This document shows, one piece after another, positions 740-17,882 of a stretch of 21,417 bases of DNA. Location of the stretch: IMG/VR virus record IMGVR_UViG_3300032309_000315, positions 1 to 21,417 of that record. One strand, written 5' to 3'. Every line of letters starts with the position of its first letter. Position 1 is the first letter of the stretch. The translations under genes and the position numbers were made by a program. Below the pieces are notes generated by a model. It saw only the letters and a list, made by a program, of their open reading frames with translations. It had not been told where the DNA came from and ran no database searches. This DNA is from a virus.

Positions 740-2611
740 ATGCTGAAAAAACTTACCCTGAAAGCCGGTGTAAACAGAGAGAACACTCGTTATACCAATG
801 AAAACGGATACTATGTGTCCGACAAGGTGCGCTTTCGTCAAGGTACACCTGAGAAAATTGGTGGGTGGACACGCATTTCAGCCAATTTTTTCCTTGGGGT
901 TTGCCGTTCTTTGTGGAACTGGGTGACGTTAGGCGGCGCTAACTTGTTAAGCGTTGGAACCAATTTAAAGTTTTACATTGAGTTTGGCGGCACATACTAC
1001 GACATTACCCCACTGCGGGTAGTTCCAGCCCCCACAATTAACAACAATCCTTTTGCCGGTAACGGGACAACCACAGTTACAGTAACCGATACCGCTCACG
1101 GCGGGGTAACGGGCGACTTTGTCACATTCAGCGGTGCTACCGGCACATACGCGACCACTTGGAATCAAGAGTACCAAATTACAGTTCTGACTGTAGATAC
1201 CTACACAATCACTGTAGCATCTGCTATTCCAGCTGGATCCTATGGTGGCGCGGCTGTGGTGGCTGCGTATCAAATTAACGTTGGCCCTGCTACTGCCCTG
1301 CCTGTTCTGGGATGGGGTGCAGGTGGATGGGGTACTGGTGGTTGGGGTGTTGGTACATCTACGAGCTTTCCAATCCGGATTTGGAGCCAGTCAAATTTTG
1401 GTGAAAACTTAGTCTTTGGTTACCGTGGTGGAGAAATCTATTACTGGGACAATGCGACTGGGTTAACCACCAGAGGTGTTTTAGTTTCTAGTTTGGTTGG
1501 CGCATCGGACGTTCCGTTGATGCAGAACTATTTACTTGTTTCTGATGCGTCAAGGTTTGTGTTTGCGTTTGGTGTAAACGACTACGGCAGTATTGTGCAA
1601 AACCAGATGTTGCTTCGCTGGTCGGATCAAGAAGACATTGCAATGTGGACGCCCGCAGCTACAAACCAAGCCGGTAGTTTACTGTTGTCACATGGCTCCA
1701 AGATTGTGACTGCGCTTCAGACTCGCCAAGAGATTTTGGTGTACACGGATTCAACGCTGTATTCTTTACAATACCAAGGCCCGCCAGTCATTTGGAGTTC
1801 CCAGCTGCTAGGTGACAACATTTCTATTGCCAGCCAAAACGCGGTGGCAATTGGTTCAGGTGTGGTTTATTGGATGGGTGTAGACAAGTTCTACAAATAC
1901 GACGGTCGCGTTCAAACATTACGTTGCGACTTACGTAAATTTATTTTTGAAGATATTAATGCAGAACAGTCAGATCAATTTTTTGCCAGTACCAATGAAG
2001 GCTTCAATGAAGTTTGGTTCTTCTATTGTTCAGCATCGTCCTCCTCAATTGACCGGTACGTGGTCTACAACTATTTTGAGAACAACGGCGAAGGCGTATG
2101 GTATTACGGCAATATGGTTAGAACCGCATGGCTTGACTCCGGCTTGCGTAACTACCCAATGGCCGCTACAGACATCAACAACGTCGTCTACCATGAGTAC
2201 GGTGTAGACGATAACTCAACAGAAGTTACCACTGCAATTAACGCAGTCATTGAAACTGCTGAGTTTGATATTGATGACGGCCATCACTTTGGTTTTGTGT
2301 GGCGTATGCTTCCAGACATTACCTTTAATGGGTCTACGGGCGCAAGCGCTCCGCAGGTCACCATGACTTTAATCCCAATGCAGAACTCTGGCTCAGGCTT
2401 TAACGACCCTATTTCTGTAGGGGGCAACAGCAATGCAACCATTGCTCGTACAGCTACCGTCCCTATTGAAGAGTTTACTGGTCAGGTTTATGTCAGGGTT
2501 CGTGGTCGTCAAATGATCTTAAAGCTTGAGTCTAGTCAGCTTGGCACTCAGTGGCAACTAGGTAGCCCGCGTATTGACATCAGGCAAGACGGTCGCAGGG
2601 GTAACTCATGA
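740..2611 (+). CDS. Virion structural protein, tail/head-stabilisation type
   Basis: This 623-aa protein starts 8 bases after the lysozyme stop. The N-terminus (GVNRENTRYTNENGYYVSDK, then VRFRQGTPEKIGGW) is a pattern I recognise from the large structural protein often annotated as phage stabilisation or tail protein in podovirus-like genomes. The rest is rich in short beta strands with many aromatic residues and repeated 'VVYWMGVDKFYKYDG'-like stretches, as expected for a beta-propeller. Residues about 200-212 hold a Gly/Trp tandem repeat (GWGAGGWGTGGWGVG). No catalytic motif, signal peptide or TM segment is visible. It overlaps the next gene by four bases (ATGA at 2608-2611), so the two are probably co-translated. 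The role (tail nozzle, hub or head-completion protein) is an inference from context and fold impression; the exact assignment is uncertain. Confidence 0.65.
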   Translation: MLKKLTLKAGVNRENTRYTNENGYYVSDKVRFRQGTPEKIGGWTRISANFFLGVCRSLWNWVTLGGANLLSVGTNLKFYIEFGGTYYDITPLRVVPAPTINNNPFAGNGTTTVTVTDTAHGGVTGDFVTFSGATGTYATTWNQEYQITVLTVDTYTITVASAIPAGSYGGAAVVAAYQINVGPATALPVLGWGAGGWGTGGWGVGTSTSFPIRIWSQSNFGENLVFGYRGGEIYYWDNATGLTTRGVLVSSLVGASDVPLMQNYLLVSDASRFVFAFGVNDYGSIVQNQMLLRWSDQEDIAMWTPAATNQAGSLLLSHGSKIVTALQTRQEILVYTDSTLYSLQYQGPPVIWSSQLLGDNISIASQNAVAIGSGVVYWMGVDKFYKYDGRVQTLRCDLRKFIFEDINAEQSDQFFASTNEGFNEVWFFYCSASSSSIDRYVVYNYFENNGEGVWYYGNMVRTAWLDSGLRNYPMAATDINNVVYHEYGVDDNSTEVTTAINAVIETAEFDIDDGHHFGFVWRMLPDITFNGSTGASAPQVTMTLIPMQNSGSGFNDPISVGGNSNATIARTATVPIEEFTGQVYVRVRGRQMILKLESSQLGTQWQLGSPRIDIRQDGRRGNS

Positions 2612-2949
2612 TCGTTACGTCAGAGTTTGAACTTAGTCAGGTAGCCGCGCCTAACTTACCATTGGCTACAGAGGAATACTCTCGTGCGTATACCGACCAG
2701 CTAAACAACGTACTGCGTCTGTACTTTAATCGTGTTGATGCAATTCTTGACCAGCTAAAGACAGACAACATTGTTCCAGCCCTAACTAATTACACTGTGG
2801 CAACGTTGCCAAGTGCGGTGACATCTGGCAAAGGCGCAAGGTCGTTTGTAACTGATGCTTTATCGCCTACATTTGGATCAACTGTAGCTGGCGGTGGTGC
2901 AGTGGCTACACCCGTATACTCTGACGGAACGAATTGGAAGGTCGGATAA
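2608..2949 (+). CDS. Small virion-associated protein with fibre-like C-terminal motif
   Basis: A 113-aa protein whose ATG overlaps the stop of the large structural gene. The N-terminal 50 residues look helical (TEEYSRAYTDQLNNVLRLYF, then a short amphipathic stretch). The C-terminal half carries a motif familiar from many phage tail and fibre proteins: GARSFVTDA followed by a Gly/Ala turn region and ending VYSDGTNWKVG. In phages this 'G-R-x-FVTDA ... V.SDGTNW' element usually sits at or near the end of adhesin or tail-tip polypeptides. Here it is on a stand-alone short protein, so it may be an adaptor or tail-associated protein. I recognise the motif but not a named family. No TM segment or signal peptide. 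Confidence 0.75.
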   Translation: MIVTSEFELSQVAAPNLPLATEEYSRAYTDQLNNVLRLYFNRVDAILDQLKTDNIVPALTNYTVATLPSAVTSGKGARSFVTDALSPTFGSTVAGGGAVATPVYSDGTNWKVG

Positions 2950-2950
2950 T

Positions 2951-5149
2951 ATGTCTTGGACACCAGAATACCCCGAATGGCCCGCGCCCAGACCTGAAGT
3001 TGATTACTTTGCCCAGCAGTTTGGAGATGACTTTGGTGGGGATGCCATATCTCAAAACCAAGCATTGGCCGATATTATTAATCCGCCCGCAAATAAAACA
3101 TCTGATAATGCCGCAACAATTGAGGCGTTGAAAAAACAAATTCTTGGTCAGGGTTTAACAGGTAAATGGTCTGGTCAAGGCCGTGGTTCTGCTGAAGCTA
3201 ATGCCGCTGACATGGCTAAGATCCTTGCTGATATTGGTATTACTGACATCAATCAGTTTGGAAAAATAACTGTACCAGTCGAAGTGTATATGGGCACAGA
3301 GTATGAGGGAGGCCCTCCTGTATACGAAACTCAAATGCAAGAAACCTTTGGCAACAAGCTAACAGGCCAAGTAGTACCAAACACGTACAGCGAGCGCCAA
3401 CGAGGTGACTTCTTTGGTGGAACTTTTGAGGGTAAAGGTAACACTGGCTATGGTGTAAAGTTTGATGCTCAAGGCAATCCCATTTTCTACACGCAGGGTG
3501 CGTCGTCTAATGACCTAGTTAATCTGTTTAAAGACGATCCACTTTTGGGTGCGATAGCTCAAGTAGGCGCAGCTTATTTTGGTGGCCCTGCAGGTTCGGC
3601 AGCACTAGCTGCGGCTATGGGCAAGAGTCCTGAAGATATTTTAAAATCTACGGCGCTTTCCTATCTTGGTAACGCTGCGGGTAGCGCTGTATCCAACATG
3701 GAAGGCATTACGGATGTACTAGGTAAAACCGGTACAGAGATTGCATCTAATGCAGCAAAACAATTTGTTGGTAGTGGTGGCAACATCGACCCTGTTCAGG
3801 CATTGTTGTCTAGTGGTTTAAACGCAGGCATTAATACCGTGGCCACAGACTTGGGCATGGGTGACTTAACGCCCGCGCAACAGAAGATGGTTAGCTCCGG
3901 TATCAGCGGTTTAATTGCGGGGCAAACTCCAGAGCAGATCGCCATGAATGTGGCAATGGCAGCCGTCACTGCAAAGCCAGACAGTACACTTAAATCATCG
4001 CTTGGCCCCGGCAATGAACAAGACTTTATTGATAATTTAATCCCCGGTTATTTTCAGCCCGGCGGTGCAGGGTATGCGGAGCCAGAGCCTGCGCCAGAGC
4101 CTACACCTGTGCCAGAAGAAATAACAGTTCAACAAGAACCTGCAAATATAGAAGAATTCATTAAATCATTAGAACCATACGTAGCTCCTGCGCCCACACC
4201 TGAGCCAACACCTACAACTGAGCCTGCTCCAGTTGTTGAAGATATTGTTAAGCAGCTGCTAAATTCTGAACCAACTCCTGAGCCATACCAGCCGGTTGTA
4301 GATTTACCAGACTATGTGCAAGAACCTGTACGTGAGCCAGAACCTGAGCCAACACCCGCTCCAGCACCTACTCCAGAACCTACACCTGAGCCAACACCCG
4401 AACCTCAGCCTGTTCCAGATATTGTTGAGCAGTTAATAAATTCTGGGATGCCAAGCCCTGATGAAGACTTTGTGCCGACTTTGCCAGAACCTACGCCTGA
4501 GTCTGTTGCGCCAGAGCCTACACCTGAGCAGTTTGACCAAGACAATCAAGATGCTATTGATAGGTATATACGGGAGTTAACATCCGAAGAAATTCCTGAG
4601 TTAGTAATGAAGGGCGACAGAGACAAAACACAGGAGCATGTATTTGACCCAACGTTTGGCGGTGTGTTGCCGTTGGATAACCTGCCGTATCTGCCTACAG
4701 ATGATGACTTCGTGCCAACTAATGAAATTGAAGTTCCAGAAACGCCAACCACTCCTGTTGCTACGCCTAAAGTGTCCACGCCTAAAGTGCCGACGCCTGC
4801 TAAGACTACACCAACTCCGACGGCGTCTTCTCCTTCAACACCGTATTTTTACCAACAACCGGTTAATCAAAACATTATTCCTGAGTTGGCCAAGGTGTTC
4901 TATTTTGGCAAGAACTTTGGCGGGCAACAGCAGAAGCTTTCACCTGAAGGTGAATTACTGACAACCCCCTACAACCAGTTAAGCGTGACGCAGGCTGGCG
5001 CAGAACCAATGCCACAACCAATTCCTGTTGCACAAGATGCAAAAGGCGGCGAAAATGACATATCTGCGTTGTTGCAACAAATCATGTCTTCGGGCGATCC
5101 TAATATGACGCAAGAAGAACTGATGCAACTTATTCAATCAAGAGGTTAA
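2951..5149 (+). CDS. Large virion-type protein with Pro-Glu-Pro-Thr repeat region
   Basis: I place the start at the ATG at 2951 rather than the upstream in-frame start at 2894: the latter would overlap the previous gene, while 2951 directly follows its stop and has GGAAGG about 10 bases upstream. The product is 732 aa. Residues 1-375 are moderately ordered, with Gly/Ala-rich hydrophobic segments around 195-240 (GAIAQVGAAYFGG). Residues about 376-530 are an acidic Pro-rich repeat (PEPTPEP), interrupted by short helix-forming motifs (DIVKQLLNS, DIVEQLINS). Residues about 599-631 form a second Thr-Pro-rich linker (TPKVSTPKVPTPAK). The C-terminus is helical (DISALLQQIMSSG). I do not recognise a named family. 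Position between structural genes and the ejection-type proteins suggests a virion component; the repeat suggests an extended or flexible linker. Function is unassigned. Confidence 0.8.
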   Translation: MSWTPEYPEWPAPRPEVDYFAQQFGDDFGGDAISQNQALADIINPPANKTSDNAATIEALKKQILGQGLTGKWSGQGRGSAEANAADMAKILADIGITDINQFGKITVPVEVYMGTEYEGGPPVYETQMQETFGNKLTGQVVPNTYSERQRGDFFGGTFEGKGNTGYGVKFDAQGNPIFYTQGASSNDLVNLFKDDPLLGAIAQVGAAYFGGPAGSAALAAAMGKSPEDILKSTALSYLGNAAGSAVSNMEGITDVLGKTGTEIASNAAKQFVGSGGNIDPVQALLSSGLNAGINTVATDLGMGDLTPAQQKMVSSGISGLIAGQTPEQIAMNVAMAAVTAKPDSTLKSSLGPGNEQDFIDNLIPGYFQPGGAGYAEPEPAPEPTPVPEEITVQQEPANIEEFIKSLEPYVAPAPTPEPTPTTEPAPVVEDIVKQLLNSEPTPEPYQPVVDLPDYVQEPVREPEPEPTPAPAPTPEPTPEPTPEPQPVPDIVEQLINSGMPSPDEDFVPTLPEPTPESVAPEPTPEQFDQDNQDAIDRYIRELTSEEIPELVMKGDRDKTQEHVFDPTFGGVLPLDNLPYLPTDDDFVPTNEIEVPETPTTPVATPKVSTPKVPTPAKTTPTPTASSPSTPYFYQQPVNQNIIPELAKVFYFGKNFGGQQQKLSPEGELLTTPYNQLSVTQAGAEPMPQPIPVAQDAKGGENDISALLQQIMSSGDPNMTQEELMQLIQSRG
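4076..4530 (+). repeat. Pro-Glu-Pro-Thr coding repeat
   Basis: Degenerate in-frame repeats of a 12-base unit reading roughly GAGCCAACACCT encode PEPT within the 732-aa protein. The repeat blocks lie at about 4076-4118, 4191-4235, 4268-4290, 4331-4414 and 4485-4530. Between blocks are conserved hydrophobic helix motifs. Third-base differences between units show the repeat is not a very recent expansion. Confidence 0.85.
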
Positions 5150-5150
5150 C

Positions 5151-6251
5151 ATGAGTGATATTTTTGACTTTGAGACTGGCGCAAGTCAATCCGAATTAAA
5201 TAATTATCTAAACAATGATGGCTACGACTTTTTTGCAGATCCTAGAAATGATCCGTATAAATACAATGACTTAGGGCCATCGCCATCTAACTCTGAAATC
5301 CTGACAGACATTAATTACGATCCCGGAATCTTAAGTAAAATTGGGAGCATCTTGTCTGGCAAGTCTGGAACAATGGCTCAGTTGGCAGGTTTAGGTGGGA
5401 TTGGCACTTTGCTAAATTCCATTGGTGGATCTAGTGGTAGTGGCTACAAAGGCTACCAAGGCGGAATACCGCAGTACACGGCCTCCAGAACTCAGCTTCC
5501 TATCCCTCCTAGCGGATCACAAAGCGCAACTCCCGACGGACAAGGTGCGCCTAAGCGCAGACCCGGTTCAGGCGGTGTAACGTATTTCAGCCCTATGCGC
5601 TACACACAAGCAAGCGCTCCTGTAGGAGAGCAACCAACAGGGATTGCTAATTTGCCTGCTGTAAACAGCGCACCTCCTGCCAATATCCCTCAAACACCTC
5701 AGAAAATGGTGGCTCAGGACGATCCGTTCTATCAATCGGCAGAGTACAAGGCGTTTCAAAACGACCCGTCAAATATGATGGGTACTATGGATATGTACAA
5801 CTCCCCGTATTTTGGTCAATTAGGTTCTGGGTCAATTGGTAGCGCTATGGATAGAGCGTATGAGCAATACAGAAATAAAACCGGTGGTGGCGCTCCTACG
5901 CGGTCAATTAATACTCCAGAAATACCTGATCGTTCTGTGCCAATAGCTGAAATGGCTTCGGGTGGCATTGCAAATTTAGGTGGTTACTCTGATGGCGGTC
6001 GCTTGCTCAAAGGACCCGGCGATGGCGTATCCGATGACATCCCAGCCATGATTGGCGATAAACAACCAGCCCGTCTTGCTGACGGCGAGTTTGTTATCCC
6101 CGCTCGCATTGTTTCTGAGATCGGTAATGGATCAACAGACGCAGGAGCGCGTAAACTATATGCCATGATGGATCGTGTCCAGAAGGCACGTGGCAAAACT
6201 TTGAAAAACGTTGCAGCCAACAGCAAGGCTGACAAACATTTACCAGCGTAA
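5151..6251 (+). CDS. Virion-associated protein with DGEFVIPA C-terminal motif
   Basis: A 366-aa protein starting one base after the previous stop, with AGAGG five bases before the ATG. Residues 1-75 are acidic and polar. Residues about 75-100 are Gly/Leu-rich (LAGLGGIGTLLNSIGG). The middle (100-260) is Pro/Gln/Ser-rich and probably disordered. The C-terminal 100 residues are the distinctive part: MASGGIANLGGYSDGG at 265-280, then KGPGDGVSDDIPAMIGDKQP and ARLADGEFVIPARIVSEIGN, then GARKLYAMMDRVQKAR. I recognise the 'GDG-SD-IPA-I ... ARL-DGEFV-PA-VV--LGNGS---GA--LY-MM-R' element as widespread in structural proteins of environmental tailed phages, without an established function. It may be a virion assembly or packing domain. 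Confidence 0.8.
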   Translation: MSDIFDFETGASQSELNNYLNNDGYDFFADPRNDPYKYNDLGPSPSNSEILTDINYDPGILSKIGSILSGKSGTMAQLAGLGGIGTLLNSIGGSSGSGYKGYQGGIPQYTASRTQLPIPPSGSQSATPDGQGAPKRRPGSGGVTYFSPMRYTQASAPVGEQPTGIANLPAVNSAPPANIPQTPQKMVAQDDPFYQSAEYKAFQNDPSNMMGTMDMYNSPYFGQLGSGSIGSAMDRAYEQYRNKTGGGAPTRSINTPEIPDRSVPIAEMASGGIANLGGYSDGGRLLKGPGDGVSDDIPAMIGDKQPARLADGEFVIPARIVSEIGNGSTDAGARKLYAMMDRVQKARGKTLKNVAANSKADKHLPA

Positions 6252-6260
6252 GGTTTAAAC

Positions 6261-7181
6261 ATGGCTGCTACAGATCTTAAAATGTCCCCCACCTCCGGTG
6301 GATCATCTTCTTCTACCCTGTCAGAATGGGCAGGCCCGTATGTAACAGATATGCTTGGCAAAGCCCAAGCTGTTGCCAATGAACCCTATCAGGTCTACCA
6401 AGGCCCAATGACTGCGGGTGAGTCTGGCCTGCAATCTAAGGTGTTTCAGGGCTTGGGTAACTTAGCCTTTCCCGGCAATCTGGGCCAAAGCTTTAGCTCT
6501 TCTGGGGCGTATCAACCTCCGCAGATGAATATGGGTGCTTATCAAACGCAGCCCATTGGCATTGGACCACAGCCGGGCGAAGCGCCTCCTGCCGGTATCA
6601 CAGGTGCATCCATTATTCCTACACCTACTCAACCGCAAGGTATTGCATCGCAGTACATGAACCCGTACTTGCAGTCTGTGCTAGACCCGCAGCTGGCAGA
6701 GTTGCGTCGTCAGAATGACATTACCAACATGCAAACTAACGCCAAACTGACAGACGCTGGTGCGTTTGGTGGTGGCCGTCAGGCAATCATGAATGCGGAG
6801 AACAACCGCAATCTGATGCAAGAGATGAACAAGACGGTCGGCCAAGGGTACGCAAGTGCGTACGACAAGGCCATGCAACAGTTCAACACTGAGCAAGGCC
6901 AAGCCAAGACTTTGGCTGACATGATGGCTGAAGCAGGCGGCCAACAGCGCGGTATTGAACAGCAAGGTATCAGCGCAGACTACAACGAATTCCTTGCACA
7001 GCGTGATGATCCAATGAAGAAGACGCAGTACTTGCAGTCTATGCTTCAGGGTCTGCCCATCTCTACGGTCACCAACACAGCCCCCCAGCTAAGTGGCTTA
7101 GGCAACTTGGTTAGCTCCATTGGTGGCATGGGATCTATCATGGATTCCCTCAAGAAATTTAAATTGACCCCCCCTCCCTAA
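6261..7181 (+). CDS. Putative internal virion / ejection-type protein, Gln-rich helical
   Basis: A 306-aa protein. Its ATG directly follows the palindrome GTTTAAAC, and the spacer from the AAGG Shine-Dalgarno runs through that palindrome. Residues 1-130 are Gly/Pro/Gln-rich with little predicted structure. From about residue 130 there is a conserved helical core: ASQYMNPYLQSVLDPQLAEL, DAGAFGGGRQAIMNAENNRN, then a long Gln-rich helix around GYASAYDKAMQQFN. I have seen this 'YMNPYLQ-VLDP ... T-AGAFGG-R-A' pattern repeatedly in environmental podovirus-like genomes immediately upstream of a giant polyvalent protein, generally annotated as hypothetical or as an internal virion protein. The order here (three helical or disordered proteins, then one giant protein) is reminiscent of the T7 gp14-gp15-gp16 arrangement. 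Homology to those is not shown. Confidence 0.75.
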   Translation: MAATDLKMSPTSGGSSSSTLSEWAGPYVTDMLGKAQAVANEPYQVYQGPMTAGESGLQSKVFQGLGNLAFPGNLGQSFSSSGAYQPPQMNMGAYQTQPIGIGPQPGEAPPAGITGASIIPTPTQPQGIASQYMNPYLQSVLDPQLAELRRQNDITNMQTNAKLTDAGAFGGGRQAIMNAENNRNLMQEMNKTVGQGYASAYDKAMQQFNTEQGQAKTLADMMAEAGGQQRGIEQQGISADYNEFLAQRDDPMKKTQYLQSMLQGLPISTVTNTAPQLSGLGNLVSSIGGMGSIMDSLKKFKLTPPP

Positions 7182-7190
7182 GGATTCAAC

Positions 7191-8780
7191 ATGAATCTGA
7201 TCCAGATACAAGAACACCTCAAAGATATGCCCATGCGGGCAATCATGGAATATGCCAATGGCAAGAGCACACAAGTGCCTCCCTACTTGGCTTTAGGCGA
7301 GTTAAACCGCCGCAAGCAGATGTCGCAACAAGCGACTCAGCCACCACAAGGCACAGTCAAAGATAAGATTGAGCAAGAGGTGACAGGCGGTCAACCCAAT
7401 CCTATGCAAGCGGCGGCTCAGGGTATGCCTCAGCCAATGCCACAAGCTGCACCTCAAGGTCAGCCAGCACCACAGCAAGCTGAACCCATGCCTCAAATGG
7501 CTGGTGGAGGATTGACTGCGCTGCCAGTGGGTGACATGTTTAAATTCGCATCTGGCGGGGGTGTTGTAGCTTTTGCTGAGGGTGATTTGGTACGTGATCC
7601 CATGACGGGAGCCGTGATCAGTTCTGATGAATTATCCACCGATGATCGCACCCTCATGGAGCGACTTGGCATCTTCAACCCAGAGAACCGCCGCGCTCTT
7701 GAGCGTGGTGAGCGTGCAGCCGCTGCCGCCAAGAATCCTCCCAAAGAAGAGACTAAGAAAGAAGAAAAGAAAGCAGAACAAGGTGGTGCATATGACCCCG
7801 CTACAGCAACTCGTAGAGTTGACTTTATGCAACCGCCTCCCGCTCCAGCCGTAGGCATCCCTGCTGCGCTTGGTATGCCTAAGGCCCCATCGTTTACAGC
7901 ACCTAACGCAGATGAGTACGCCAATAAGCTGGCTGAGTTTAAACGAGCTAACCCCGGTTTAGTTGGCAGCGAGTTCCAGAAGTTGGTGGACAAGATTGCT
8001 CAACAAGACGAAGCCGACCGCGCTCGTTTTGTTACACAAGAGAAAGCCCGTACACGTGCTGACTTTTGGAAGTCTTTAATTGACGCAGGCGAAGCTAGCC
8101 GTGGTCAAAAAGGTATCGGTGCTTTGCTAGGTGGTTTTGGTAGGTCTGCTGGCGCTTCTGAAGCGGCTGCGGCTGAACGTGCAGATGCACAAGCCAAGAT
8201 GCGTCGTGATCAAGAACTGGGCATGGCTAAGATACGTGCTGAACTTGAGTCTGCCCGTCGTGCTGAAGCTCGTGGCGACTTTGAAGCTGCATTTAAACAC
8301 AAGCAAGACGCAGACAAGATTGCTCGTGATCTGGAGCAGACTGAGTTCTCCAACAAGATGGATATGGCCAAGCTTAGAGAGCAAGCCCGTGGCAACACCA
8401 TCCAAGCTTCTACTGCCGCTCGTGCGCCTCAGGTCATTCAGGTTGCTCAAGAGATTCAGCGCCAGAACCCCGGCATGACTTTCAACGAAGCATCAGATCG
8501 TGCCGCAGCTTTGATTGCTGGAGGTCAGTACCAGACTGCCGCGCAGCGTCAGGCTAAAGCAATCTCCGACGCTTTGGCTGAGAGAACTAAGATGATTGAC
8601 ATGCAGTTGACCATGACCAAGCCCGGATCTGCCGAAGAGAAGGCCTTGAACGAGCAACGAAAGAAAGTTATTGAACGCTTTACGGCTGATCAGAAGTTGC
8701 TTACTGGCAAATCTGGTACGCAAGATGTCAACACACCTAGCCCCGGATTTGGTACATTTAAACCTGTTAATCCTACCTAA
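7191..8780 (+). CDS. Putative internal virion / ejection-type protein, coiled coil
   Basis: A 529-aa protein preceded by AAGGA six bases before the ATG. The N-terminus (residues 1-45) is a short helical domain ending YLALGELNRRKQM, a motif common in environmental phage proteins at this position. Residues 50-105 are Pro/Gln-rich. Residues about 105-135 hold an MAGGGLTALPVGDMF stretch followed by ASGGGVVAFAEGD, similar to the MASGGIANL element of the 366-aa protein upstream. Residues 170-205 are an Ala/Lys/Glu-rich charged helix, and 290-480 are long, charged alpha-helices (AKMRRDQELGMAKIRAELES) expected to form coiled coils. No TM segments. Together with the two flanking genes it probably forms part of the internal core or ejection apparatus. 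This is inference from order and composition. Confidence 0.75.
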   Translation: MNLIQIQEHLKDMPMRAIMEYANGKSTQVPPYLALGELNRRKQMSQQATQPPQGTVKDKIEQEVTGGQPNPMQAAAQGMPQPMPQAAPQGQPAPQQAEPMPQMAGGGLTALPVGDMFKFASGGGVVAFAEGDLVRDPMTGAVISSDELSTDDRTLMERLGIFNPENRRALERGERAAAAAKNPPKEETKKEEKKAEQGGAYDPATATRRVDFMQPPPAPAVGIPAALGMPKAPSFTAPNADEYANKLAEFKRANPGLVGSEFQKLVDKIAQQDEADRARFVTQEKARTRADFWKSLIDAGEASRGQKGIGALLGGFGRSAGASEAAAAERADAQAKMRRDQELGMAKIRAELESARRAEARGDFEAAFKHKQDADKIARDLEQTEFSNKMDMAKLREQARGNTIQASTAARAPQVIQVAQEIQRQNPGMTFNEASDRAAALIAGGQYQTAAQRQAKAISDALAERTKMIDMQLTMTKPGSAEEKALNEQRKKVIERFTADQKLLTGKSGTQDVNTPSPGFGTFKPVNPT

Positions 8781-8788
8781 GTTTAAAC

Positions 8789-11700
8789 ATGGCACTGTAC
8801 AGAATTACTGCCCCCGATGGCCGCACATACGAAGTCGAAGGCCCAGCAGGGGCAACTCAGCGCCAAGTAGAAGCAGAGTTACTGCGCCAAAACCCCATGG
8901 CGGGGTTGACTTCCAAAGAGCTGGCAGAGACTCCACGTGCTCCTAGCACCATTAAAGACATTGGATTTGGTGGATTAGGCGCACTGGCAGGTGGTGTTCA
9001 AACGCTGTCAAACATTGCTGGTGTGAATAACCCAGTCTCTAGGGGTTTAGGTTCTATACAGCAATACGCGCAGGAAAATCTTAGCCCTGCCCGTCAAGAA
9101 GAGTTAGCAATCCAAAGCGAGTTAGAAAGCCGTGCTCAAGGCACTGGCTTGGGTAATGAAATTAGCACTGGCATACGCCGGTTTACACAAGCTCCAGTAC
9201 AGGGTACTTTAAATGCATTGCTAGGCAGTGCTCCTATCATTGCTGCCGGTCTGTTGCCCGGCGGTCAAGCTGCCGCAGGTGCAAGCCTTGGAGCTAGGGT
9301 ATTGGCTGGCGCACGTGGAGCCACTGGTATTGGTGGCTTGATGGGTGTTGGCGGTCAGAAGGGCCAAGACTACGAAGCTGTTAAGCAAGCGTTGCTTGAC
9401 AAGGGTGTAGCCCCTGAAATTGCCGAGCAAAAAGCTTTAGAAGCTTCTGCTTATTCAGCAGAGAACTTACCCCGTCAGTTTCTAGCTGGCGGTGCAGGCG
9501 CTTTGGAAGGTGCGTTCGGTGTTGAACAAGCCTTGGCCAATGCGGCTAGGAAAGTTAGCAGAGCTAACGGCGCACCATCGCTGGATGCGCCAACGTTTAA
9601 ACGTGCTGTTGGCACATCTGTGCTGGGCGAGGCAGTGCCTGAAGCTATTCAGGCTGGTGTCGGTCAGGTGGGAACTAACGTTGCCCTGAATCAAGCTGGC
9701 GTTGCTACAGATCTAACTCAAGGCTTGGCTGGTACAGTGGCCCATGATGCCTTGGTCGGTGCAGTACTGGGCCTTGCTGTATCTCCTGCGCAGATGTCTA
9801 ATCTGCAACGTGATCACCAACGGGCCAAAGCCGATGAACAAGCTAGAAAGCAGGCTGAATTTGACCAGCAACGTGAAGCTGCGGCGCAAAAGGCCGAAGC
9901 CGAGCGTGCTGTTTTTCAGAAACAGACCGAAGAAATCCGCCAGCAAATGGAGCAACAGCAGGCTATTGCTTTGCCTGCGCCGTCTGAGGAAATCCCCGTT
10001 GAAGAAGTACAGACCGACCCGCTTAAGAATCCTCTAGGCAACATCCGTAAAGGAGAAGTTCCCTTTGACATCTACAAGCAGATCGATGACTATCGCAAGC
10101 AGGCTGGACTTCCCAAGCTCAAGGAGTACTCGATTGAGGACTTTGTGGATGCTATGCCGGGGGTTAACCCTAAGTCAGAGCAAGCTTTGCTTGACGAACT
10201 CATTACCGCCAAGTCTGGTTATGCAGGTGAGAAATACACCGCAGAAGATGTTATCAACCAAGCCAAGCTAAAGAACGTTGAAACAAAAACGCAGGGCTTT
10301 AAAGACTTCTTGGCCAGAACTACTGGTGTAAACGCACTGGAGAAAATGTCGCAGCCGCAGCTGCACGCCGCGTTTAAGGCATTGAATGCTCTGCCCCAGT
10401 CTGAAGGTTTAAACATCCTGCCTGAAGGCACAAACGCCAGCCGGTTCAACGACAAGCAATATACCAACGCCATCAAAGGCGTGGACATGTTGCTCAATGA
10501 GTTGGGCGTTCCTGTCGATCCTTCTGAGGTTATCAAGACTATCAAGGAATACACAAACCTGACAGAAGACTCCCATGCTGGAGCTATTCTGGATGCGGCT
10601 ATTAAGAACGGTGACGTTGATCTGATCAAGACACCTCGCTATGAACTCTATGATCCAAAGACAGGCAATGTTCTGCCGTCCACCTACACATCTAGGACAG
10701 CTGCACGCGCTGCCGCTAGTAAGCGTGGTTTAAACGTTCGGCAGATTACAACTGACGCCATCGCTGCTCCGTCCACCTCCGCAACGCTGCCCGAAGGATT
10801 TGACATCCGTGAAGGTGCGTTTAAAGAAGGTGAAGCCCCATCCGGGTTTGATGTGCTGGCTGGGGACGAGGTGTTGTTTAAAGCCAACACCATCGATGAA
10901 GCCAACGCCAAGAAGGACAGCTTTGAGCGTACCCGCGCCGGTATGGCTAACAGTCGTGAGAACCAGATCACGCAGTTGAACAACGCCATTGAAGCCAGCC
11001 AGAAGCGTTTAAACACTATGGAGGCTCAGGGCAAAGGTCAGACGACCGGTTACCAGAAAGCCGCTGGTAAGCATGCCAAGCTAGTCGCAGACACGCAGGC
11101 AAAGATTGCCGCTCTGACAGAAGAGATCAAGAAGTTTGATCCTAAGGTTACTGCGCTTGCAGTCAAACCAACAGGCACTAAAGCTATTGGCCGTAAGGGC
11201 TATACCGTGTTTGAACAGGGTCAGGCACGTGCTACATATCCATCTCGTCAAGCGGCTGAAGAAGGCATCTTGGCCGACATGGATGAGAAGCAACTGCAAG
11301 AGTTGACTCAACAACAAGGCCGTCGGGCAGTAGGTAAGAAGGCTCAAGCTGAACTGGAACGCAGAACTGCACCCAAGCCTACAGAAGGCAAGCCTGTCTC
11401 TCAGGTCTTAGAAGACATTGAAGTTGAAGCTAAAGCCGCAAAAGCCAAGGCAGAGGAAGTTAAGACTTCTCCCGAAGTGAAAGCAAAGTTGGCTCAACTT
11501 GAGGCAGAACTTAAACCTTTGCTAAAACAATTTGGCCTTGGCAACATCAATCTTAATTTTGTTGAGAAGTTGGTTGAAGGTAACGGTTCTTATAACGAGA
11601 GCTTAATTAAGATTGCTTTAACTGCCAAAGAACCAGTGCGCGTATTACGCCACGAATCTTTACATGCCTTAAAAGATTTGGGTTTCTTTACCCCCCAGCA

Positions 11701-14700
11701 GTGGTCTACGCTTGAGCGCATGGCTAAAGATCAGTGGATTGACAAATACTTAAAGAGTAAAAAGTCTGACTACAAAGGCAAGCCTACGTCTCGATACGAC
11801 GCTTATGTTGACTACTACAAAGGCGACATGAGCAAGGTAATCGAAGAGGCAATTGCCGATGCGTTTGCTGATTTTGCCGTTAACAAACCACCAGCAGGAA
11901 TGCTGGCTACGCTGCTCAAACGTTTAAACGACTTCTTTACTGCGCTGCGTAATGCTTTCCGCAAAGCTGACTTCCAGACTGCCGAAGATGTATTTGGTCA
12001 GATTGAACGTGGCGAGTTAAAGGCTGGCACAGCTACGGACGGCGGCAAGAGGTTATCTGTGTTGCCAGAAAAAGTGCCAAAGATTGACCCCAATGACGTT
12101 AGTAATGTTGTTAAAACCAGCCCCTACAAAGACGCCGGAATTAATGTATTAAATTCTCAAATTGCTAAAACCTCTAAAGCTTTGGAGGTTGACGGTGTTG
12201 GCAAATTGTTTGACGACGCCTATCTTGCGGAATTTAAAAAACGTGGCGATTGGCGGAACCCTAATGACTTTAATCGGGCTGTTGCTCAGGCCGTAGATGA
12301 GTTGCAATTTCAACTGCGGCAGTCTAAATCAGGACTAGATTGGTACGAAGAAGATATTGCTGAAGCATTTAAATTAACTCAGCGATACATTCCAAGTTTA
12401 AAAAAACCTGAAAAGCGTGCGTTGTTTTCAGTGATTGCCGGAATTATGTCTCCTAGCACTAACGCAAGGGACAATTGGGTTATTGCCGCACAAGCCTATC
12501 AAAGTTATGAAGCAACCGGCATTCTTCCGGGTACTAATCCTGCAACGGGTGGACTTTGGATGGGCGGGCTGGAATCAGCCAATAAGAAAAAACAATTAGA
12601 CATGTTGAATGCAATGCTTCAGCCAAAAGGCAAAGGCGGCCTTGGTGAGAAGGGCGCTGTGGAGTGGTTGCAGGGTAGCCACACAGTTGCAGAAATAACA
12701 GATTTTCGTGCCAAATACGGAGGCATGGGGAAGTCTAACGTTGGCGGAAAAGCAACAGATATTCTTCCCGGCTTTACCGCTTTTGGGCCAAAGGTTGGCC
12801 CATTTGTGATGAACATTAACGGCATTTATGAGGTCACTGTAGATGTGTGGATGACCCGCACATTTAATAGATATTTTGGACAAATGATGGGGGCTGATGG
12901 TAAGATTATTCGCGCACCTACAGAGCCTCAACGTGTTGCCATTAAAAATCTTGCCGTGCAAGCCGCACAGCAACTGGGAATTAAGCCCTATCAGGTGCAG
13001 TCTGTTCTCTGGTTTTTAGAGCAGCAAATATTTAACAAACTTGGCACAGGAGCAAAAAGCTATGGATTCAGCGACGGAGCAATCAAGTTTATCGAAACGC
13101 AGGGCGGAGTTGGTGGAGCAAAAGTGTCTGCTCCAGACAGCGGCGTTAATGCGGCTACGGACGGGGCAACCGGAAAGCAAGCTGGACAAGTTAGCCCATC
13201 AGCGGGTAGACTACCAGCTAGAACAACTAAACAGGGAGTAAGCGATGACACAGGCAGACAACTTTCTCTTAGAGAACCTACCGCTAGATCCGGCACAGGA
13301 GGCGGGGAAAGGCTCTCTATTACGGGAGCAGAAGAGGGACGATCCGAACCGACCAGAGACAGAGAGGGACGGGATCAGGTCAGAGGCTTTACGCCGCTTG
13401 CAGGTGCGCCGATTATTTCAGGGGCAACAGGGCCAGACCCAAGCCTAGTCAAAGTAGCGGAAGATTATGCTAAGAAGTATAAAATTCCGTATCGCAGACA
13501 AGCGTCTTATGTTGAAATTGATGAAGATTTTGCCAAGCTAGTCGGTCAAGCGTATGACGCAATGCCTCATGCGCCAAACAACCCTAAGGTCAAGGAAGCA
13601 TATCAAGATCTCAATCGGCAGACCAGAGATCAGTATGATGCATTGGTTGACGCTGGCTACACCTTTACATTCTTTGACAGCAACACCGATCCTTATGATG
13701 GCAACCCCTTTAATGCAATGCGGGATCTGCGTAAAAATAAACAGATGGCTGTTTATGGAACTTACGACGGCTACGGCACTGAAGGAATAACTGGTGCAGC
13801 GGTTGAAGACAACCCTATGTTGGAGGATACAGGACTGCGCTGGCCTGACCAAAACGGTGTTGAGCACATGGTTACAGCCAATGACCTGTTCCGTGCCGTT
13901 CATGATGCGTTTGGGCACGGCTTAGAAGGTGCTGGTTTCCGAGCTAGGGGTGAAGAGAATGCATGGCAAGCACATGCCCGTTTATTTACCGGCCCTGCCG
14001 TGGGTGCTCTTACCAGCGAAACCAGAGGCCAGAACAGTTCGCTTAACTATGGCCAATACGGAGAAAAGAACCGTACAGCAAAAATAGAAGACACCGTTTT
14101 TGCAGAGCAAAAGACTGGTTTAATGCCAGACTGGACATGGAAAACTAACATTGTTGATGATGAGGGAGTCGTGCTTGGTAGCAAACAAGCTGATGCTGTG
14201 AGTGTTAAGGGTTTGCATTATGGCAAAGTCCGTGTAGAAGAACTTGATGCGTCTAAGTATGGCAGTGGTGTCCGTGGTGCGGAGCGACGCAGACTGGAGC
14301 AAACGGATGACGACCGCATTAAACAGCGTGTTTACTTCTACATTGCTAAACCAGATGGTTCAACACCGCTACCAGAAGCCGGGGTAGGCCAGTACGTTTA
14401 TACGCAAAAGTTTGACAATATTCTTGGCCAAGGGCTAACAATGAGCCGCTTATTCCGAGAGGCTAACGGCGACTCAAATGCCTTTGAAAGTCTGGTTGTG
14501 GACTCTGGCTACGATGGCTACGCAGTGCCTAACATGGGCATGATGGTTATTTTGAACCACAACACACCAGTTAACTATAAAGGCACGCGATCTGAATTAG
14601 CAGATGATCAGAAAAGGTTAAGTTTAAATGAAGCGCCGTCAAATTCTCTTTTAACAAAGAGGATGAGTAATATCGGTATTAAATCTACCAATGATTTTTG

Positions 14701-17608: not shown

Positions 17609-17882
17609 GGTGACCCCGCTCGAATAACCATCCAATGGTTCTTCGGTGGGCTTCATCCCAAGCCTTAAACTTGGCGTCCTTGCTCCATTCATAGCCTTGG
17701 TCAATCTTGGCATGGCAGGTGTAGCACAGTGCCGCGATTCTGTAGTCGTGAGCCTTGAGGCCCATTCCCTTGCCATCGCGTTGTTGGTTGGAATGTGCGG
17801 CAACCACCGTGCCATCCTGTGCTCCACAAATCTGACAGGGTGATTCCCGCACTAGGTCAAGAAGCTGCCGGTTACGATACAT
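17589..17882 (-). CDS. HNH / YbcO-like (DUF1364-type) nuclease
   Basis: A 97-aa protein, last gene of the left-pointing operon. Seen: C16-Q-I-C19, then AAHSN with H30, then C53-Y-T-C56-H57. This is a CxxC ... AH ... CxxCH arrangement typical of small ββα-metal (HNH) nucleases of phages such as YbcO/DUF1364: one Cys4 zinc site plus a His-based catalytic metal site. The C-terminal helix has AWDEAHRRTIGWLFERG. Likely role: DNA endonuclease acting in phage recombination, packaging or host DNA processing. No Shine-Dalgarno is visible; the 15-base spacer after the DUF3310 stop is instead occupied by GTTTAAAC three bases before the ATG at 17882. Its 3' end overlaps the convergent giant gene by 20 bp. 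The nuclease fold is well supported; the exact family is less sure. Confidence 0.85.
   Translation of the reverse strand: MYRNRQLLDLVRESPCQICGAQDGTVVAAHSNQQRDGKGMGLKAHDYRIAALCYTCHAKIDQGYEWSKDAKFKAWDEAHRRTIGWLFERGHLTLHSP

Follow-up and report, generated by a model that had tools for sequence, protein, structure and literature searches.

The locus described here raises the question of what a protein of an uncultured phage does with a string of short recurrent peptides set between Pro-Glu-Pro-Thr (PEPT) spacers. The protein is encoded in IMG/VR record IMGVR_UViG_3300032309_000315, analysed over its whole length of 21,417 bases (the window), by a plus-strand open reading frame (ORF) of 732 amino acids (aa) at 2951-5149, which contains all the motifs of interest and which we call the slot gene. 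A preliminary description, made from the letters alone, had read these motifs as copies of one amphipathic helix on a stiff linker, offering several binding sites to a single virion partner. The explanation we favour, with moderate confidence, places the slot protein in the DNA-ejection module as a modular tether, whose docking peptides can be swapped and probably serve several partners. The short peptides are called beads below, and the parts of the gene are as follows.

2951-5149, plus strand: slot gene, encoding the modular protein (ORF, start and stop context).
3119-3511, plus strand: conserved N-terminal domain (NTD; 378 IMG/VR relatives, 46 aligned).
3512-4012, plus strand: Gly/Ala-rich, mainly helical segment of low confidence (structure model).
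4013-4066, plus strand: bead I (QDFIDNLIPGYFQPGG type; 6 census matches).
4136-4180, plus strand: bead A (EPANIEEFIKSLEPY; 24 census matches).
4185-4268, plus strand: copy 1 of the duplication unit, PEPT spacer plus DIVKQLLNS (DNA repeat families D2 and D4).
4371-4445, plus strand: copy 2 of the duplication unit, PEPT spacer plus DIVEQLINS (DNA repeats).
4451-4480, plus strand: bead G (PSPDEDFVPT; census; also in three unrelated phage protein architectures).
4529-4579, plus strand: bead Q (QFDQDNQDAIDRYIREL), the confidently predicted helix of the bead region (model; DNA identity with L023).
4595-4624, plus strand: bead B (PELVMKGDRD, in the family ELVxTGxR), the most frequent bead, with 45 census matches.
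4622-4663, plus strand: bead H (DKTQEHVFDPTFGG; its core VFDPTYGG recurs in the next-door ORF of L011, L027, L028 and L093).
4688-4720, plus strand: bead g (YLPTDDDFVPT; census).
4868-5146, plus strand: C-terminal module containing DISALLQQIMSSG and TQEELMQLIQSRG (alignment of 13 sequences).

The motifs quoted in the preliminary description lie where it had placed them (IEEFIKSLEP, 4148-4177; DIVKQLLNS, 4241-4267; DIVEQLINS, 4418-4444; DEDFVPT, 4460-4480; DDDFVPT, 4700-4720), and DISALLQQIMSSG is present as well, but at 5057-5095, beyond the range of 4139-4720 given for it. PEPT itself is found seven times in the slot protein. The resemblance of DIVKQLLNS and DIVEQLINS exceeds chance (BLOSUM score of 36, whereas 300 block shuffles of residues 356-732 reached 33 at most) and is a segmental duplication. 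The pair forms a 35-nt DNA repeat with 83% identity and the preceding 54 nt of PEPT spacer are repeated at 78%; since the repeat spans both, spacer and motif were duplicated together (about 80 nt). By eye, DIVxQLxNS was seen only in close relatives (L003 and L013). The recurrence of DEDFVPT and DDDFVPT is also real, with 30 matches to bead G and 18 to bead g in the census described below, some sites being common to both. However, the grouping of the four helix-like motifs into one class is weak: the score of IEEFIKSLEP was equalled by 8 of 200 shuffles against DIVKQLLNS and by 8 of 200 against DIVEQLINS, and its score with the C-terminal DISALLQQIMSSG was reached in 19 of 200 shuffles of one motif. 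For DIVEQLINS with DISALLQQIMSSG, the observed score was reached in 3 of 200. Four beads had been overlooked, namely DFIDNLIP (from 4022), DAIDRYIREL (4550-4579), PELVMKGDR (4595-4621) and EHVFDPTFGG. The original observation is thus partly confirmed: the motifs at their places and the two recurring pairs stand, the single class is weak and the common helix has mixed support.

To place these motifs in a family, relatives were collected with the full protein (24 loci), with bead-rich parts of relatives (19 and 16) and with an NTD alignment (378 IMG/VR relatives, of which the best 80 were retained). Proteins extracted from 120 records were reduced to 98 nonredundant sequences, and removing L040 and L042, in which both the NTD and the C-terminal module are missing, left 96 relatives, window included; 23 of these are truncated 3′ and 4 are truncated 5′. 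The family is laid out as a conserved NTD (46 sequences aligned), a variable middle and several alternative C-termini, with tails that vary greatly in length and composition; a few members, among them L037 (the same as L282) and L057, lack the NTD and were found through bead or tail similarity. A census was then made of all 98 proteins with sixteen seed peptides, using half of the self-score as the threshold and one local shuffle of all sequences as the control. The matches, with those in the shuffle in brackets, were 24 (0) for A, 45 (2) for B, 30 (2) for G, 18 (0) for g, 14 (0) for H, 19 (0) for S, 19 (0) for N and 17 (0) for E, while the short D seed was noisy, its 20 matches versus 5 in the shuffle making D counts unreliable. 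As had been proposed, motifs occur in several copies, with one to three of the A type and one to six of ELVxTGxR in each protein that has them. The order and number of beads differ between relatives: the window reads IADDGQBHgGKC, L013 reads IGADGAGBGABHgGY, L001 reads LENBSBSAGBHKC, L011 reads LENBSBABSgBgY and L063 reads ENBSBSBSBSBgBH.

The PEPT spacer would have been expected to outlast the motifs if these were incidental to it; the opposite was found, and it is the spacer that is dispensable. Bead A is present in 19 of the 96 relatives, and 15 of these 19 have fewer than eight PEPT-type words (overlapping PEPT, EPTP, PTPE, TPEP, PEPE and EPEP), 13 of them having at most two. Any of the beads A, G, g, B and H is present in 32 of the 96, and only five of the 32 carry at least eight such words. 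The stiff linker does not hold for the family, as other relatives carry Ala-, Asn- or Thr-rich runs in its place. Microsatellite slippage was considered as the sole origin of PEPT and was rejected: the Pro codons of residues 379-530 vary (CCT 21, CCA 17, CCC 3, CCG 2) and Tandem Repeats Finder reported four short arrays of 2.2-3.8 copies, so PEPT is not a recent pure DNA expansion.

The spacing between bead B and the bead after it is also mostly constant. From bead B to the next bead there are 14 aa when this is S (17 of 17 cases), 9 when it is H (11 of 11), 18 when it is A (4 of 4), 11 when it is G (3 of 3) and 12 when it is g (3 of 4), counts that include related copies many times; in three further cases, the bead that follows B is at least 100 residues away. 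Among distinct copies, the ratio of nonsynonymous to synonymous differences (pN/pS) was 0.27 for A, 0.38 for B, 0.16 for G, 0.19 for g and 0.08 for H, with pS of 0.57-0.87, and since bead copies were picked by protein similarity, which biases the ratio downwards, these values are a support for selection and not a proof of it.

Some beads also occur in other proteins. When all IMG/VR contigs were scanned for MPSPDEDF, 13 stretches came up, which comprise six NTD proteins (four identified from the contig or locus name), one relative without NTD (L282, classed as such because its N-terminal part matches the Gly/Ala segment of the window at 29%, E 2.6e-7) and six proteins of other architectures. 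The latter fall into three types (L283, L287 and L289; L279 and L286; L288), which carry one to five copies of PSPDEDF on proline-rich linkers; L283, the N-terminus of which is cut off, was assigned through its C-terminus. In blastp comparisons between the N-terminal parts of these three architectures and the window protein, nothing better than E 0.1 was found. Both genes upstream of the slot gene in the window are present in L282, L287 and L289, so the L287/L289 type and the L282 type occupy the same slot. This assignment was not extended to L288, which has weak matches to the 623-aa and 306-aa proteins of the window, to L286, with weak matches to the 623-aa and 366-aa proteins, or to L279, with none. 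The next-door ORFs of L011, L027, L028 and L093 each carry one or two copies of VFDPTYGG, the core of bead H, close to their start. As these ORFs match both the 366-aa protein (33-59%) and the 306-aa ejection protein (40-62%) of the window, the two proteins are fused in these four phages. In 781 other ORFs (241,798 aa), there were no matches to A, g or S, one to B, seven to H, all in the next-door proteins of L011, L027, L028 and L093, and 14 to G, 11 of them in L279, L283, L286 and L289. IEEFIKSLEP was also considered as a bead used outside the family: one of its seven exact IMG/VR matches lies in an 82-aa ORF (L290) that looks AlpA-like by eye and was taken as chance, and the remaining six were traced to family contigs through the contig name or an earlier translation.

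The neighbours of the slot gene in the window connect it to virion genes. The slot-gene ATG at 2951 is one base past the TAA of the upstream gene, and a lysozyme gene is also found among the neighbours. The run of genes is as follows.

740-2611, plus strand: 623-aa virion structural gene, phrog_3287, head and packaging (PHROGs match).
2608-2949, plus strand: 113-aa gene, abutting the slot gene (ORF; neighbourhood search).
5151-6251, plus strand: 366-aa downstream gene, the C-terminal ~93 aa of which are fused to the slot protein in six relatives.
6261-7181, plus strand: 306-aa protein, phrog_4287 'DNA ejection protein' (E 6.9e-7).
7191-8780, plus strand: 529-aa protein of the same gene run (ORF; neighbourhood search).
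8789-17608, plus strand: 2939-aa giant protein that closes the gene run and has an LPD38 domain (profile scans).

Hence, phrog_3287 lies two genes upstream and phrog_4287 two genes downstream of the slot gene, which sits within a run of head-stabilisation and ejection genes in the window and in many relatives. The 623-aa protein has a 24% tblastn match where the record MW202710 has an annotated 'phage stabilization protein'. Among the 72 relatives with at least 2.5 kb of upstream sequence, both upstream genes (623 and 113 aa) were present in 44 and the 623-aa gene alone in 8; both downstream genes (366 and 306 aa) were present in 30 of the 47 relatives with at least 3.5 kb downstream. In L004, L066, L075, L087, L092 and L100, the slot protein is fused to the last ~93 aa of the 366-aa neighbour with 77-80% identity, and a weaker seventh fusion was found in L112 (41%). 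It is the 366-aa neighbour, and not the 306-aa ejection protein, that is the partner in these fusions. Gene neighbourhood, fusions and a bead common to the next-door ejection-type protein support the tie to neighbouring virion genes that had been proposed earlier. The presence of the 529-aa gene follows the C-terminal type (K/C 6 of 6, fused 5 of 5, Y 0 of 8, others 3 of 28, with at least 3.5 kb downstream); physical linkage explains this association, which was set aside as evidence of binding.

At the DNA level, the slot gene marks a sharp border. Six contigs from four groups (L007; L030, L031 and L032; L066; L077) have 95.7-98.5% DNA identity to the left arm of the window, and in all six, the high identity ends at 2949 or 2950, right before the start codon. 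Past 2950, only patches of 69-83% remain, which cover the NTD and also, for the L030 group and L066, portions of the genes downstream; the contigs of L007 and L077 stop within the slot gene. L001 is 88.5% identical to the window up to 2753, 68.7% in the NTD and 90-92% from 4730 on, and L023 matches the window over 55 bp with 100% identity (4526-4580, bead Q) and over 59 bp with 98% (4698-4756), its downstream match being 70%. On these alignments, the slot gene is, to all appearances, a swapped cassette. The last 39 bases of the 113-aa gene, at the swap boundary (2911-2949), have 35 positions invariant in six aligned phages, five of which are close relatives there, so that only L004 is informative.

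The predicted structure fits a string of peptides without deciding what the string is for. In a full-length AlphaFold2 model built with 22 sequences, the mean predicted local distance difference test score (pLDDT) was 50.5, and 492 of the 732 residues scored below 50. The sole confident helix of the bead region is at 525-544 (block mean pLDDT of 79-83 over 521-540), with weak helices at 704-713 and 721-730 (block pLDDT of 53-66) and low-confidence ones at 356-361, 401-405 and 642-654. Of the amphipathic helix proposed earlier, the model thus retains one that had been overlooked, at 525-544, and the weak C-terminal ones, but predicts none at either DIVxQLxNS copy. The beads are short conserved motifs in an otherwise unconserved disordered region, the disorder being read from the low pLDDT of this one model, and a disordered monomer would be expected of a docking string and of filler alike. 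A model of residues 1-130, covering the NTD, had block pLDDT of 86-97, and of 71-79 at 91-110. A known fold was sought for the NTD, and neither PDB, with a best E of 0.13 in the sequence search, nor BFVD nor VIA gave anything convincing; the best Z in the second look with VIA was 4.3, to a short helical segment, and since its rows mostly cover residues 199-305, this is no proof of a new NTD fold.

Taken together, we suggest that the slot protein is probably part of the DNA-ejection (pilot-protein) gene module, in which a folded NTD and an exchangeable C-terminal module, linked by the long disordered string, would be anchored among the ejection proteins. The exact sequence of the string would matter little, PEPT serving here and other low-complexity runs elsewhere, and selection would keep the short peptide modules that it carries. 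These beads probably serve as docking peptides. VFDPT(F/Y)GG and the acidic PSPDEDF are proposed to dock components of the virion ejection machinery because both are also present in further proteins encoded by these phages; ELVxTGxR may act as the fixed leader of composite modules. Copies are probably gained through duplication of a spacer with its bead and through exchange between phages, for which the bead-sized stretches of near-identical DNA in L023 speak. We infer that the beads bind partners and that the slot protein is packaged and ejected. With at least six bead kinds, a single partner is unlikely. Of the earlier interpretation, the multiple copies and the link to virion genes are retained, while the one partner and the stiff linker are not.

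Several results weigh against a tether of the ejection module. The slot protein has no profile match to any ejection-protein family in PHROGs or Pfam, and the NTD model has no fold match in PDB or BFVD at E ≤ 0.001. None of the beads A, G, g, B and H is found in 64 of the 96 relatives (16 of which are truncated 3′), and therefore the family as a whole does not need them. Neither upstream gene was detected in 20 of the 72 relatives and neither downstream gene in 17 of the 47 considered above; in such far relatives, the NTD may stand in other surroundings, or the neighbours may be too diverged for detection. In MW202710.1 (L058), the NTD gene sits between portal-like and scaffold genes and not in the slot of the window. 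The fused next-door ORFs of L011, L028 and L093 have no phrog_4287 match of their own and are called ejection-type because they are similar to the 306-aa protein of the window. The fixed distances from bead B may partly reflect the copying of a longer unit, B and H overlapping by one residue, and the bias in pN/pS given above counts here as well.

The original idea, that one amphipathic helix is repeated along a stiff PEPT rod and that all its copies bind a single virion partner, draws on the clear DIVKQLLNS/DIVEQLINS pair, the confident helix at 525-544 and the weak C-terminal helices. The variety of bead kinds, the dispensable PEPT, the non-helical DIVxQLxNS of the model and the 19 of 200 shuffles that matched IEEFIKSLEP with the C-terminal motif nevertheless make it improbable. 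We give the same low standing to neutral low-complexity filler, in which the beads would be by-products of duplication and recombination in a fast-changing linker and would have no binding function. Duplication of spacer and bead as a unit, tails very different in length and composition, and the 64 relatives that lack the main beads speak for filler, but amino acids are kept while synonymous sites have strongly diverged (with the similarity-selection bias applying here too), distances from leader to next bead are mostly fixed, and the same beads occur in other proteins. A host-facing hypervariable cassette, swapped owing to a host envelope partner or host defence as tail fibres are, is unlikely, if a shade less so. 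The abrupt end of the 95.7-98.5% identity before the start codon in four groups (six contigs), followed by 69-83% patches, and the match of L001 to the window on both sides of a 68.7% NTD are in its favour. Yet the ejection genes are also diverged in the L030 group and L066, where the whole right-hand module may have moved, the contigs of L007 and L077 end inside the slot gene, and PHROGs and Pfam gave no receptor-binding or enzyme domain. This cassette reading and the tether reading are not mutually exclusive.

A further possibility is TonB-box mimicry, in which ELVxTGxR beads would recruit host TonB during entry. The TonB-box motif learned from 78 Plug-anchored N-termini of TonB-dependent transporters is [VI]VVTA[TSN][RK]. 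In 59,718 aa of relatives' tails, its smoothed seven-column core reached 10 bits or more at 32 places, while 200 local shuffles averaged 6.3 such matches and never exceeded 13. The full nine-column matrix, at 12 bits or more, found 4 matches in these tails, where shuffles averaged 1.4, and also 4 in 194,613 aa taken from other phage ORFs. The window bead LVMKGDR scored 0.3 bits, compared with 6.5 bits for the 10% quantile of the transporters, and the ELVxTGxR copies are duplicates and not independent. With the smoothed core enriched, the strict matrix without clear enrichment and the window copy failing, TonB-box mimicry by ELVxTGxR is kept as a weak rival, which we consider very unlikely. A broader proposal, rather improbable in our view, is a system of peptide address tags in which modules made of an ELVxTGxR leader and, at a fixed distance behind it, one of several payload beads are collected, copied and exchanged in one slot. 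Each phage would thereby wire its ejection machine to different virion and host-envelope partners, and in some lineages, the leader would be a TonB-box mimic tying the ejected protein to the energy-transducing machinery of the host.

Among known systems, the neighbourhood is similar to that of the podovirus ejection proteins (P22 gp7/gp20/gp16 and T7 gp14/gp15/gp16), the P22 order being head/stabilisation gene, ejection protein and giant protein. Profile and fold searches did not link the slot protein to them. Ejection proteins are reported to exchange domains in a mosaic manner (PMC8954989), and the portion of that article available to us describes no array of shuffled short peptides of the kind found in the slot protein. 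Phage domain mosaicism, in which protein fragments are shuffled between phages and between otherwise different proteins, is described in PMC10684548; the shuffled units here are instead peptides of about 8-17 residues in a string predicted to be disordered, and the terms 'ejection' and 'linear motif' do not occur in the accessible portion of its text. Tail fibres and receptor-binding proteins share the conserved N-terminal part, the variable rest and the cassette-like replacement; the slot protein differs in being largely disordered in the model and in having no fibre or receptor-binding domain in the family scans. Colicins carry TonB boxes, and in some relatives, a short VxVTGxR-like peptide lies in a flexible segment, as TonB boxes do in transporters and colicins, in contrast to the bead B copy of the window, which does not match. 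No paper was found with VFDPTFGG, EEFIKSLEP or PSPDEDF, nor any peptide cassettes of the bead kind, in open-licence PMC papers. The known layer is ejection-protein mosaicism together with domain shuffling, and the new element is that the shuffled unit is so small. Phages are well known to shuffle folded domains, and shuffling of short docking peptides along a disordered string in the ejection module would, if true, be a second and finer layer of modularity. The beads could also serve as ready-made reagents, short peptides for fishing out partners, and the slot is a natural experiment, with phages that are near-identical up to the start codon and have different string proteins beyond it, which can tell what the slot protein decides.

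The wider searches added some minor observations. The slot protein matched no PHROGs family (E ≤ 0.01) and no Pfam family (E ≤ 0.1) in profile scans, and these showed no fibre, receptor-binding or enzyme domain, although a miss does not exclude one. Three tblastn queries (the full slot protein and the NTD regions of two relatives) against a phage collection of 50,697 records each gave one record, the uncultured MW202710, and of the 596 GTDB genome stretches that fit the NTD pattern, none was confirmed as a host or prophage relative. Of the 46 NTD-region members, 14 match phrog_790 'endolysin' at E ≤ 0.1 (best E 2e-8), which hints that the region may be fused with cell-wall hydrolases elsewhere; the window NTD does not match. 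Five NTD proteins (L065, L116, L129, L132 and L133) have a Gln/Ala-rich C-terminal half that looks ejection-type-like by eye, and the two that were run against PHROGs, L065 and L132, had no match. The tails of L071, L070 and L076 have very long APAPAP or TPTPTP runs (94, 60 and 106 xPxP words, respectively, versus 37 in the window). In L061, L122, L131 and L057, the tails repeat Cys-bearing units (KVTVTGKKETCPVGTVLNPITGEC in L061) beside a VxVTG-like bead, which suggests disulphide-stabilised beads in an oxidising place. Further along the window, the 2939-aa giant protein (8789-17608) also carries a DUF7178 domain, and an HNH endonuclease gene (phrog_131, E 5e-24) lies on the minus strand at 17589-17882, where gene direction turns.

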